DNA from: Pseudorhodoferax soli
GTDB taxonomy: Bacteria; Pseudomonadota; Gammaproteobacteria; Burkholderiales; Burkholderiaceae_C
Length of the DNA stretch: 64,000 nucleotides
Assembly (NCBI RefSeq): GCF_003337555.1
Contig: NZ_QPJK01000001.1
Location: 1,302,001 to 1,366,000, forward strand
Reading direction: 5' to 3'
Part shown: one piece after another, positions 27,804 through 39,009 of the stretch
How positions within the stretch are numbered: position 1 is the stretch's first letter
How the letters are laid out: every line of letters starts with the position of its first letter
Made by a program: the position numbers and the translations under genes
The notes under the pieces: model-generated
What the model was told of the DNA's origin: nothing
The model's input: the letters and a program-made list of their open reading frames with translations, nothing else
The model's database searches: none

Positions 27804-27839
27804 CTGTACCTGCTTCGAGGGATACAGCTGCCCTACAGT
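27804..27839 (+). promoter_or_regulatory. MocR-type operator and -10 of the livK operon
   Basis: CTGTACC (27804-27810), ten bases, GATACAG (27821-27827), and a -10-like TACAGT at 27834. The element upstream of the HMG-CoA reductase gene (37652-37687) has the same half-sites, the same ten-base spacing and its -10 at the same 30-base offset. No good -35 is present, as expected for an activator-dependent promoter. Confidence 0.7.
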
Positions 27840-27912
27840 CGGGCTGCAGCACCGCCGCCAACAGAAGCGGCGTGCCGCCCATCCCCGAGTCCATTCCCAA
27901 GGAGACAAACCC

Positions 27913-29115
27913 ATGCCATCGGTCCACCGTTTCGCCAAGCTCGCCGTCGCCGGCGCCATCGCCGGGTCCCTGTGGGCCGGCGCCGCCGCCTACGCCCAGG
28001 ACATCAAGATCGGCTACACCGCCGACCAGTCCGCCAGCGGCGTGGCCGAACTCGGCATCGCGGGCCGCTGGGGCTTCGAGGCCGCCATCGAGGACATCAA
28101 CAAGGCCGGCGGCATCATGGGCCGCAAGGTGGTCGGTGTGGTCCGTGACGACCAGGGCACGCCGCCCAAGGCGATCCAGAACATGACCGAGCTGATCGAC
28201 GCCGAGAAGGTGCACGCCGTCGTCGGCCCGGCCAACTCGGGCAACGCGCTGGCCTGGCTGCACCTGCCGCAGCAAAAGAAGATCCCCGTCGTCGTGCCCA
28301 TCGGCACCGCCACCGAGATCACCAACCGCTACGCCAAGGAACCGCAGAACTACCTGTTCCGCGTGTCCATGGTCGACCGCGAGCAGGTGGCGCTGCTGGG
28401 CGCCTACGCCGTCAAGGCGTCCAAGGACAAGAAGATCGCCATCCTGGCCGACTCCACCGGCTACGGCCAGGGCGGCATCAAGGACGCGACCGACATCCTG
28501 GCGCTGCACGGCGTTACACCCGTGGCGACCGAGAAGTACGGCCCCAAGGACACCGACATCACCTCGCAGCTGTCCAAGATCAAGGCCGCCGGCGCCGACA
28601 CCGTGATCATCTACGGCATCGCCGACGGCACGGCCCAGGTGCTGCGCAGCATGGAGAAGATCAACTACATGCCGGTGACGCTGGGCACCTGGGGCAACCT
28701 GTCCTCGCTGCTGCCCAAGATGGCCGGCGAAAAGCTCTCCGAGCACCTGATCCTGGCCGCCTCAACCACGGAGGACACCAACGCCAAGACCAAGGCGCTC
28801 GGCGAGCGCGTGCGCAAGAACTTCCCCACGCTGACCACCTTCCCGTGCTCGGCCCAGGCGTACGACTCGGTCATGCTGCTGGCCGCGGCGATGAAGCTGG
28901 CCAACAGCACCGACGGCGAGAAGGTCGCCGCCGCGTTGGAGAACGTGACCGGCGTGGAGGGCGTGATCAAGACCTACAACAAGCCCTTCACCAAGACCGC
29001 GCACGAAGGCCTCTCGGTGGCCGACTTCTACCTGGCCCGCTGGAAGAACGGCGCCCCGGTGCGCTATGAAGACCAGTTCACCAAGGCGTTGACGCCGGCC
29101 GACCTCAAGAAGTAA
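27913..29115 (+). CDS. LIV-type ABC importer, periplasmic binding protein
   Basis: Periplasmic receptor of a hydrophobic amino acid-type (HAAT) importer, 400 residues. A signal peptide (KLAVAGAIAGSLWAGAAAYAQ) is followed by the Peripla_BP_6 fold: IKIGYTADQSASGVAELG, INKAGGIMGRKVVGVVRDDQGTPPKA, VVGPANSGNALAW and DSTGYGQGGIKDA. This family covers amino acids but also many aromatic and aliphatic acids, so the usual livK label would be misleading. First gene of the operon that continues with livH, fused livM-livG and livF, then the GMC and acyl-CoA synthetase genes. A MocR-type operator precedes it. Confidence 0.93.
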   Translation: MPSVHRFAKLAVAGAIAGSLWAGAAAYAQDIKIGYTADQSASGVAELGIAGRWGFEAAIEDINKAGGIMGRKVVGVVRDDQGTPPKAIQNMTELIDAEKVHAVVGPANSGNALAWLHLPQQKKIPVVVPIGTATEITNRYAKEPQNYLFRVSMVDREQVALLGAYAVKASKDKKIAILADSTGYGQGGIKDATDILALHGVTPVATEKYGPKDTDITSQLSKIKAAGADTVIIYGIADGTAQVLRSMEKINYMPVTLGTWGNLSSLLPKMAGEKLSEHLILAASTTEDTNAKTKALGERVRKNFPTLTTFPCSAQAYDSVMLLAAAMKLANSTDGEKVAAALENVTGVEGVIKTYNKPFTKTAHEGLSVADFYLARWKNGAPVRYEDQFTKALTPADLKK

Positions 29116-29133
29116 GCCCGTCTGGGCGGCAGC

Positions 29134-29165
29134 GCCCACGCCACGCGGCGTGGGCCTTCTTTCTC
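29134..29165 (+). terminator. Hairpin after the binding-protein gene
   Basis: Nine-base-pair stem GCCCACGCC / GGCGTGGGC with a four-base loop, followed by CTTCTTTCT. It lies between the receptor gene and livH, where a partial terminator commonly keeps receptor levels above those of the permease. Confidence 0.65.
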
Positions 29166-29187
29166 GCGTGGTTCTCAAAGGGAAGAC

Positions 29188-36227: not shown

Positions 36228-37629
36228 CCGGGCGCGCGCCCTGGCGCAGGACGGCCTGCAGGGCGGATGCGAAGCGCGGGTCGAGCACCGTCCCCACGTT
36301 GAAGCGCGACCAGGGCGACACGGCCTCGGGATCGACGCTGAAGATGCGGCCCGGGGCCATCATCACCTGGCGTTCGAGCATCGCCTGAGCCAGCGTCAAC
36401 GCATCCGGTGCGCCGGGCAGCCGCGCCCACAGGAACAAGGAGGCCGGGGTCTGCGTGAACAGCTCGGCGCCCAGGCCATGGAGCAGTTCCTGCGCGCGCA
36501 GCGTGGCCTCGGCAACACGCCGGCGCAGGTGCGCCAGATGGGCGAGGTACTGGCGCTCGCCCAGCAGCGTCTCGACCGTGCGCTCGCAGTACTCCGAGCT
36601 GCTGACGTGCACCAGCGCCTTGAGGTCCGCCAGGTCGCTGGCCAGGTCCACGCTGCACGCGATGAAGCCCACGCGCAGCGCGGCCGACAGCGACTTGGAA
36701 AAACTGCCCACATAGAGGGTGCGCTCCAGCGCGTCCAGCGCCGCGAGCCGCGTGGACTGCGGCGGCTTGAAGTCCGCCAGCGGATCGTTCTCGACGATCA
36801 GCAGGTTGTGCTGGCGTGCGAGCGCGAGCACGCGCTGGGCCACGGCGGGTGCCAGGTCCGAGCCCGTGGGGTTGTGCGCCAGCGACTGCGTGAAGAACAC
36901 GCGCGGCCGGTGGCGCAGCAGCAGTTGCTCGAGCGCCCGCGTATCGGGCCCCTGCGGCGTGCGCGGCACACCCACTGTGCGCGCGCCGGCCAGGTGCAGC
37001 TTGCCGAACAGCGGGTAGTAGCCCGGGTCGTCCGCCAGCACCACGGCACCGGGCGGCACGAAGTAACGCACGATGATGTCCATCGCCTCGTTGGCGCCAT
37101 GCGTGAGCACCATCTGGCGCGTGCCGGCGGCGATGCCGAAATCCGCCAGCCGGCGCACCAGGCGCTGGCGCAGCGGCTCGTAGCCGAAGCGGTTGCCATA
37201 GCGGAACAAGGTGCCCAGCCCGCCGCGCGCCACCTTGTGGTGGTGCCGGTCCAGCCGCGCGCCGGCCAGCCATTCGACGGGCGGAAAGCCATCGCCCACG
37301 TTGAGCTGGCCCGGCTCCTCGCGCAGCTGGTTGCGCATGAGCCAGACGATGCCCATGGCCCGGCCCAGCGAGCCGGCATCGTCCTCGGCCGCCGCGGCCG
37401 CTGCGCGCGCCGGCGCCTTGACGAAGAAGCCCGCACCGCGGCGCGGCTCGACCAGTCCGCGCGCGACCAGCAGCTCGAAGGCGGCCACCACGGTGTTCTT
37501 GCCGAGCCCGCGCTGGCCCGCCAGTGCGCGCAGTGAAGGCAGCTTGTCGCCGGCGCGGAAAGCACCTTGCAGGATCTGGTGCTCCAGCGTGTCGGCCAGC
37601 TGGACGAAGATGGATTCGGTGGATGGCAT
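36211..37629 (-). CDS. MocR-family PLP-dependent transcriptional regulator
   Basis: 472 residues: an N-terminal GntR-type winged helix ([34 protein letters not shown], 21-53) fused to a fold-type I aminotransferase domain with the PLP Lys at 312 ([14 protein letters not shown]), HNPTGS and NDPLADF. MocR/GabR proteins use the aminotransferase part as a PLP-dependent sensor. It diverges from the degradative HMG-CoA reductase gene, and a spaced inverted repeat (37652-37675) lies between the two starts. A matching element lies upstream of the ABC-importer operon, so this protein is the probable regulator of both units. Confidence 0.93.
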
Positions 37630-37651
37630 GGGCGTCAGCTGTTCCGCCGAA

Positions 37652-37687
37652 CTGTACCTGTGCGCGCGGGTACAGCCGACCCAGAAT
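37652..37687. promoter_or_regulatory. MocR-type operator between mocR and mvaA
   Basis: CTGTACC (37652-37658), ten bases, GGTACAG (37669-37675), then a -10-like CAGAAT at 37682. Identical architecture to the element at 27804-27839. The inverted half-sites are perfect here. The position suits control of both divergent genes. Confidence 0.75.
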
Positions 37688-37719
37688 GCCGCCACACCAA
37701 CACCGACGGAGACGACACC

Positions 37720-39009
37720 ATGGGCAGCGATTCGCGCCTTCCGAACTTCCGCGCGCTGAGCCCGGCGCAGCGGCTGGACCACATCGCCCAGGCCGCGGGC
37801 CTCAGTGCCGAGGAGCGTGCGCTGCTGGAGCAGCCCGGTGCGCTGCGGCTGGAGCTGGCCGACGGCATGATCGAGAACGTGATCGGCCGCTTCGAGCTGC
37901 CGCTGGCCGTGGCAGGCAACTTCCAGGTCAACGGGCGCGATGTGCTGGTGCCCATGGTCGTGGAAGAGCCTTCGGTCGTGGCAGCCGCCTCGTACATGGC
38001 CAAGCTGGCGCGCGAGGGCGGGGGCTTCGAGACCTCGAGCAGCCTGCCGCTCATGCGCGCCCAGGTGCAGGTGCTGGGCATCGGCGACCCGCAGGGCGCG
38101 CGCCAGGCCTTGCTGCGCCGGCGCGACGAGATCCTGGCCACGGCCAACGCACGCGACAAGGTGCTGATCGGCCTGGGCGGCGGCTGCCGCGACATCGAGG
38201 TCCAGGTCTTCCCCGACACACCGCGCGGCCCCATGCTGGTGCTGCACCTCATCGTGGACGTGCGCGACGCCATGGGCGCCAACACCGTCAACACCATGGC
38301 GGAGGCCGTGGCCCCGCTGGTCGAGCAGGTCACGAGCGGGCGGGTGCGGCTGCGCATTCTGTCCAACCTGGCCGACCTGCGGCTGGCGCGCGCCCGCGTG
38401 GTGCTGACGCCCGAGACGCTGGCCACGCCCGAGCGACGCGGCGAGGACATCATCGAAGGCGTGCTCGACGCCTACGTGTTCGCGGCCGTCGACCCCTACC
38501 GCGCGGCCACGCACAACAAGGGCATCATGAACGGCATCGACCCGGTGGTCGTGGCCACCGGCAACGACTGGCGCGCGGTGGAAGCCGGTGCCCATGCCTA
38601 TGCCGCCCGCAGCGGCCGCTACACCTCGCTGACCTGCTGGGAGAAGGATGCGGCCGGCCGCCTGGTCGGCAGCATCGAGATGCCGATGCCGCTGGGCCTG
38701 GTGGGCGGCGCCACCAAAACGCACCCGCTGGCCCGGCTCGCGCTCAAGATCATGGGCGTGCAATCGGCCCAGGAACTGGCCGAGATCACCGTGGCCGTGG
38801 GCCTGGCGCAGAACCTGGGGGCGCTGCGCGCGCTGGCCACCGAGGGTATCCAGCGCGGCCACATGGCGCTGCACGCGCGCAACATCGCGCTCGTGGCCGG
38901 TGCCACGCGCACGCAGGTCGACGCGGTGGCCGCGCGCATGGTGGCCGAGGGCGATGTGCGCGTGGACCGCGCGGCGGCGCTGCTCAAGGAACTAGGCGAC
39001 GCTGCCTGA
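37720..39009 (+). CDS. mvaA: Degradative class II HMG-CoA reductase
   Basis: Converts mevalonate to 3-hydroxy-3-methylglutaryl-CoA with CoA and NAD(P)+, the first step of bacterial mevalonate degradation. The 429 residues align without gaps to the class II enzyme pattern: Glu83 ([10 protein letters not shown]), Lys267 (THNKGIM), Asp283 (GNDWRA) and His381 ([11 protein letters not shown]) fall at the catalytic positions as I remember them for the Pseudomonas mevalonii enzyme. The cofactor segment [15 protein letters not shown] is also class II. The genome neighbourhood (importer, alcohol oxidoreductase, acyl-CoA synthetase, MocR) points to catabolism, not isoprenoid synthesis. No HMG-CoA lyase is in the window. 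Confidence 0.95.

Follow-up and report, generated by a model that had tools for sequence, protein, structure and literature searches.

The mevalonate catabolic genes of Pseudomonas mevalonii form the mvaAB operon, and a regulator has reportedly been described from this organism; TRAP receptors with bound mevalonate are likewise said to have been reported, and we know of no ATP-binding cassette (ABC) importer assigned to mevalonate. Regulators of the MocR family, for their part, have predicted operators of two to four repeated boxes, mostly containing TGT or TGG, and the commonest predicted layout, with 245 regulons (32%), consists of two direct boxes and one inverted box (main text of PMC5320631). 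Here we describe an operator of this layout in a stretch of 64,000 nucleotides of Pseudorhodoferax soli, hereafter the window (NCBI RefSeq assembly GCF_003337555.1, contig NZ_QPJK01000001.1, positions 1,302,001 to 1,366,000 of the forward strand), where genes for a LIV-type ABC importer, a GMC oxidoreductase and an acyl-CoA synthetase are followed by a mocR gene that diverges from mvaA, the gene for a degradative 3-hydroxy-3-methylglutaryl-CoA (HMG-CoA) reductase. From the placement of the predicted operators, we consider it likely that the operon for the importer, the oxidoreductase and the synthetase forms, together with the reductase gene, one MocR-controlled regulon for mevalonate use. A single MocR very probably controls both the importer operon and mvaA, in an arrangement common to related bacteria.

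A three-box operator at the livK and mvaA promoters

We observed the exact pattern CTGTACC-N10-GRTACAG at two places in the window, upstream of livK and in the gap between mocR and mvaA, about 10 kb apart, as a first-pass annotation made from the letters of the window had stated. That annotation had further claimed a -10-like hexamer at a shared offset and the lack of a good -35 element at either promoter, and both statements stand: the hexamers TACAGT and CAGAAT each begin at an offset of 30 bases, counted from the C that opens CTGTACC, and the best match to TTGACA at a spacing of 16-18 is 2 of 6 for both operators. Its description of the element was right as to core and -10 and overlooked a third box, CTGT, which sits 13 bp upstream of CTGTACC at both operators and was revealed by comparison with relatives.

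Within the genome of 8,162,227 bases, the relaxed pattern CTGTANC-N10-GNTACAG is found at these two places only (backwards control: one). The extended three-box pattern, CTGT-N8-ACTGTACC-N10-GGTACAG, searched genome-wide with up to three mismatches, recovers only the two operators and the reverse-strand reading of the second, its backwards control giving no forward and one reverse match. A chance match of the motif was discarded on this genome-wide count of extended sites together with the placement of the element in relatives. At up to three mismatches the core by itself shows no excess, be it in the window (7 against a chance mean of 4.19) or in the genome (498 per strand against 1054 for the backwards control), and these two counts carry no weight in our argument. 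Three other cores with one mismatch exist in the genome (loci L162-L164), none of which is an extended site within three mismatches; long open frames cross these cores, and likewise the two window operators.

The predicted regulator combines a GntR domain (PF00392, 55.2 bits) with an aminotransferase class I/II domain (PF00155, 105.3 bits), the domain composition of the MocR family. Its lysine K312, in the motif SFSK, and its arginine R442 are invariant in 24 of 24 aligned orthologues, and the SFSK aligns with the GSFSK of 2egy; in this fold such a lysine presumably holds pyridoxal 5'-phosphate (PLP), and such an arginine a carboxylate. The boxes CTGT and CTGTACC and the inverted GGTACAG, repeated at 51 aligned sites, conform to the layout predicted for MocR operators. 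The likening of the site to the operators of PdxR and GabR in the first-pass annotation fits as regards the layout of the family, while the protein itself falls under the NCBIfam cut-offs for PdxR (NF052282, 186.8 against 320 bits) and GabR (NF052285, 69.5 against 600 bits), as well as under those for EhuR, YczR and PtsJ. The placement of the predicted operators and their co-occurrence with mocR, described below, strongly indicate this MocR as their binder.

Recurrence of the operator in relatives

A first search of 149 genomes, including that of the window, found mvaA in 15. We extended this to 399 genomes of the family, with cut-offs of E<=1e-80 for mvaA and E<=1e-110 for both mocR and livK, and recovered mvaA in 46, a mocR orthologue in 43, the exact motif in 39 and a livK match in 29; identity is at least 66% for 23 of these livK matches and at most 50% for the remainder. 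The exact motif is present in 36 of the 43 genomes with mocR and in 3 of the 356 without it (Fisher p ~1e-40, kinship ignored). Six of the seven mocR genomes that are devoid of the exact motif (G089, G151, G185, G249, G277 and G443) have a one-mismatch site at mvaA; the seventh, G250, with a mocR match of 49% identity and no match to mvaA, shows no site at up to two mismatches in the 12 kb around mocR. In all 23 genomes with livK of at least 66% identity, mvaA, the mocR orthologue and, at some place, the exact motif are present as well. In locus L065 (G192), which has the mocR orthologue with its operator, mvaA lies about 3 kb away and is of a 56-57% type.

Eight of these 23 genomes carry one site at livK and another at mvaA (G000, G002, G003, G004, G005, G362, G421 and G350, the last having one mismatch at mvaA). 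In G362 the two lie 230 kb apart, and linkage by itself is therefore not enough to account for the shared site. G084 has one site at livK, in a run of same-strand genes that includes mvaA, and one at the acyl-CoA synthetase gene (acs); G162, G404 and G407 have a single site before mvaA, which is followed by the LIV genes. Outside the 23, G205 carries a site with a fragment of livK at the end of a contig. In G008 the mvaA gene is split over two frames (L032:7189-8426), by a frameshift or an assembly error, and the livK site is intact.

We aligned 51 sites, 16 at livK or acs and 35 at mvaA, drawn from Burkholderiales, Pseudomonas and Alphaproteobacteria; sites outside the alignment belong to further members of genera already represented or are known from mismatch tables only. 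The aligned sites read CTGTyc, AACTGTACCT, about nine free bases, GGTACAG and a -10 of the form TAcAgT. The core, having been the search key, is conserved by construction, and the CTGT box, the AA and the -10 lie outside that key: the box is exact in 48 of the 51, AA directly precedes the core in all 51, and a -10 with at least four of six matches stands at offset 30 in 46. Over 27 sites, the mean number of matches is 4.0 of 6 for the -10 and 2.67 of 6 for the best -35, the latter against a background of 2.25. The CTGT box is retained at livK sites where the gene upstream, coding for a GMC paralogue, is co-directional (L020, L063, L069 and L078), and it is therefore not merely part of a divergent promoter. 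The paralogue shares 55-57% identity with the GMC oxidoreductase of the window and is encoded immediately upstream of the livK operator in L020, L063, L064, L069, L078 and L079, and in G084 (L029) two GMC genes stand in tandem. Exact matches in G281 (L066, one of two), G452 (L070) and G372 (L072) were dropped as spurious or unclear, having neither the CTGT box nor a four-match -10 on either strand, and a match in G069 (L068) was left out of the alignment by the same test. This last is a perfect motif (L068:6678-6701) in a genome devoid of a mocR orthologue.

A wider view comes from the named loci, which are the best 80 of 578 mvaA loci found, the stretches around mvaA varying in length. In 51 of these 80, mocR is adjacent to and divergent from mvaA. 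A site with up to two mismatches in the 250 bp upstream is present in 20 of these 51 loci and in none of the 29 without mocR; shuffled sequences gave none. The 51 loci with mocR code for an HMG-CoA lyase in 31 cases, a TctA-type transporter in 30 and a LIV system in seven, and one named locus (L110) has a TRAP receptor gene. The gene order is mvaA, TctA, lyase and porin in Acinetobacter bouvetii (L120), and mvaA-livKHMGF-lyase in four loci of Hyphomicrobiales, two of them from Bosea. This exchange of transporters beside mvaA and the lyase gene suggests that the compound taken up is mevalonate or one closely related to it.

Genes, pathway and competing explanations

The features of the window are collected in Table 1. 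The importer has the components that define a LIV system, namely a Peripla_BP_6 receptor, two BPD_transp_2 permeases and two ABC ATPases, with the LivM-LivG fusion being a single frame of 604 residues; same-genus relatives also show a single matching stretch. Four of the components score under the NCBIfam cut-offs for branched-chain amino-acid importers (LivK 108.5 against 477, LivH 123.6 against 379, LivG 268.3 against 362 and LivF 253.8 against 441 bits). The reductase, by comparison, exceeds the cut-off of TIGR00532 (420.8 against 259.95 bits) and is 95% identical to mvaA of Variovorax boronicumulans (L082, contig NZ_VEDO01000001.1). Among PDB sequences it best matches 6dio and 6eeu (2.3e-219), with 1qax and 4i4b at 3.1e-202; 4I4B is named as P. 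mevalonii and 6EEU as Delftia acidovorans in an excerpt of PMC12292504. An Adhesin_E domain protein (39049-39615) is encoded after mvaA and is retained in same-genus relatives.

Table 1. Predicted operators and genes of the window (positions counted from its first base)
Feature	Positions	Strand	Remarks
Operator-promoter of LIV operon	27791-27839	+	CTGT box 27791-27794; core CTGTACC-N10-GATACAG 27804-27827; -10-like TACAGT 27834-27839
livK-type periplasmic binding protein (Peripla_BP_6)	27913-29115	+	Proposed receptor for mevalonate or close relative; presumptive ligand
livH-type permease	29188-30108	+	Profile matches
livM-livG fusion (permease and ATPase, one frame)	30108-31922	+	Profile matches
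livF-type ATPase	31915-32637	+	Profile matches
GMC oxidoreductase, choline-dehydrogenase-like, under NCBIfam cut-offs	32980-34605	+	Profile matches
AMP-binding acyl-CoA synthetase	34602-36227	+	Profile matches
mocR (GntR helix-turn-helix and aminotransferase class I/II domain)	36211-37629	-	Profile matches
Operator-promoter between mocR and mvaA	37639-37687	+	CTGT box 37639-37642; core CTGTACC-N10-GGTACAG 37652-37675; -10-like CAGAAT 37682-37687
mvaA, degradative (NAD) class II HMG-CoA reductase	37720-39009	+	TIGR00532; diverges from mocR

On the evidence of these assignments, the pathway is most likely mevalonate catabolism, that is, import, oxidation to HMG-CoA and cleavage, and with moderate confidence we take the imported substrate to be mevalonate or a close relative. 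We propose that MocR would bind the three-box operator, with its direct CTGT and CTGTACC and its inverted GGTACAG, at the livK and mvaA promoters; that the LIV-type importer would bring in mevalonate or a compound close to it; and that HMG-CoA reductase would run oxidatively (mevalonate + CoA + 2 NAD+ -> HMG-CoA), its product then being cleaved by an HMG-CoA lyase encoded elsewhere in the genome and lacking the operator. No HMG-CoA lyase-like gene is present on the window's contig. The lyase of the genome (G000:C2:414032; PRK05692, 439 bits) lies near carboxylase-like genes, neighbors that we take to be those expected for leucine breakdown; we rejected it as a third target of the regulon, as the genome-wide search with the extended pattern at up to three mismatches finds no operator there. 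The GMC oxidoreductase and the acyl-CoA synthetase could provide a second route from mevalonate via 3-hydroxy-3-methylglutarate (HMG) to HMG-CoA, or act on a related substrate.

Several observations weigh against a single mevalonate-use regulon. The bare motif is not rare: by a hand count, its backwards control is present in some 66 of the 399 genomes, 2 of them among the 43 with mocR, and the motif itself in 39. Since the bare count means little, the argument rests on the position of the motif and its tracking of mocR. In 31 of the 51 named mocR-mvaA loci, including Burkholderia, Caballeronia, Acinetobacter and most Alphaproteobacteria, the 250 bp upstream hold no site at up to two mismatches; two of these 31 (L105 and L108) have a full site at livK instead. 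Among the 23 livK genomes, five (G008, G076, G199, G356 and G415) have the site at livK alone, the best match in the mocR-mvaA gap having four to six mismatches, with a lone CTGTACC remaining there in G008 and G076. Six have it at mvaA alone: G411, where no livK site is found, and the five genomes of genus g19 (G023, G210, G293, G361 and G420). In the latter, the best match upstream of livK has four or five mismatches and the LIV operon is separated from mvaA by about 290 to 410 kb in four genomes, while G293 has the two on different contigs. A different conserved element, around CGGGATAAACCCGGGATGCG and TACATTGA, occupies the region upstream of livK in g19 (L188, L189, L190, L191 and L192), which suggests that the LIV operon of this genus underwent a regulator swap. 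The co-occurrence at both promoters in relatives, to which the first-pass annotation had looked for a check, is accordingly seen as separate sites in 8 of the 23, against 5 with the livK site only and 6 with the mvaA site only. Two further difficulties concern the mechanism: the operator overlaps the core promoter, which would equally fit a repressor, and the presumed substrate has no amine for a PLP-type sensor. The proposal of one regulon comprising the importer, the GMC oxidoreductase, the acyl-CoA synthetase and HMG-CoA reductase is supported by the rarity of the extended site, by its return in relatives and by the way it follows mocR, and gives way as regards generality: the predicted regulon, though it holds in the genus of the window and in several more, is not universal.

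The direction of control turns on the promoters. As these have a fixed -10 and hardly any -35, we lean, with weak to moderate confidence, towards MocR acting mainly as an activator of its targets and at the same time repressing its own gene. It is possible, if less plausible, that MocR is a repressor which covers the promoter, at box 3 and the -10, and is released by an inducer; the core spans about -42 to -19 counted from the start that the -10 predicts, 9 bases separate the CTGT box from the mocR start codon, and another MocR protein, EnuR, is called a repressor in an excerpt of PMC8739950. However, the -35 match at the 27 promoters being little above background does not favor such a repressor, and the retention of the CTGT box at livK sites with a co-directional upstream gene suits activation. 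Rather unlikely, in our assessment, is that the same regulator and operators serve a LIV-GMC-acyl-CoA synthetase operon handling another compound, one whose route meets the pathway at HMG-CoA or mevalonate (such as HMG or a mevalonate-related alcohol), with mvaA as the second branch of the regulon. In favor of this reading, the classical mevalonate route requires neither a GMC oxidoreductase nor an acyl-CoA synthetase. Where livK is at least 80% identical, gmc and acs belong to the cluster in all 20 family genomes, acs being convergent in g19 and G411 and set apart in G084, and the stretches examined showed no lyase. The livK type of 66-68% identity (G162, G404 and G407), in turn, directly follows mvaA; a lyase was seen in two of these genomes, G162 and G404, and none in the stretch examined of G407. 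Against a different substrate speaks the fact that the LIV genes belong to one family in both layouts (at least 66% identity, the next livK matches reaching at most 50%) and accompany mvaA in both.

The remaining explanations concern the identity of the site itself. The genome has ten further MocR-like matches (E<=1e-20), some of them aminotransferases and the best 36% identical, and TGT or TGG is found in most MocR motifs according to the main text of PMC5320631, so that another MocR or GntR protein binding the livK site, with the shared motif being a generic MocR box, deserves consideration. We regard this as improbable, given that this mocR is present in 36 of the 39 motif genomes, that the motif stands at two places only in the genome, and that the 23 livK orthologues are never found without this mocR. 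Still harder to credit is a livK match that arose by chance or as a recent functionless copy of the mvaA promoter: the window's genus does deviate from the palindrome by one base (GATACAG), but the same box order, spacing and -10 recur upstream of livK in eight genera (g1, g4, g5, g21, g72, g80, g183 and g191) with differing spacers.

Relationship to known systems

The words mevalonate and HMG-CoA are absent from the main text of PMC5320631, whose supplementary tables of 86 MocR groups lie outside this check and might list such a group. Searches of the literature that paired mevalonate with MocR, mvaR or TRAP receptors found nothing, and one for mvaAB gave off-topic matches only; neither a MocR regulator of mevalonate nor a mevalonate importer appears among the matches listed, as judged by titles and the starts of abstracts. 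Hence, among these matches, mevalonate use as the target pathway of a MocR regulon was not found in print. For bacterial mevalonate use, the regulon would supply a regulator and its operator as well as a candidate importer, and it raises the question of what ligand a PLP-type, aminotransferase-like sensor takes when the presumed substrate of the pathway carries no amino group. A mevalonate-responsive regulator would also serve as a biosensor in isoprenoid engineering.

We tentatively advance a broader proposal, that MocR and the degradative HMG-CoA reductase are an old pair across Alpha-, Beta- and Gammaproteobacteria, in which the aminotransferase fold senses an amine-free compound of the mevalonate pathway and to which each lineage recruited its own importer, be it LIV, Tct or TRAP. 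Such sensing might come about by the arginine holding mevalonate or by mevaldate reacting with the pyridoxamine form. If true, this would make the LIV system an ABC importer assigned to mevalonate.

In comparison with the MocR regulons of GabR, TauR, PdxR, EnuR and EhuR, the locus shares the GntR helix-turn-helix joined to an aminotransferase-like domain with its lysine kept, the divergent target gene, and the operator of two direct boxes and one inverted box (main text of PMC5320631). It differs from them in that its targets are predicted mevalonate genes with a presumed amine-free substrate, and in that its MocR stays under the cut-offs for PdxR, GabR, EhuR, YczR and PtsJ. With the system of P. 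mevalonii it has in common a degradative, NAD-type class II HMG-CoA reductase, as reflected in the 1qax and 4i4b matches; unlike mvaAB, its cluster lacks the lyase and has instead a LIV importer, a GMC oxidoreductase and an acyl-CoA synthetase, with MocR alongside. Finally, the importer resembles the LIV/HAAT importers of branched-chain amino acids in its LivK, LivH, LivM, LivG and LivF components, and is set apart from them by the fusion of LivM to LivG, by the low score of its LivK and by its linkage to mvaA.

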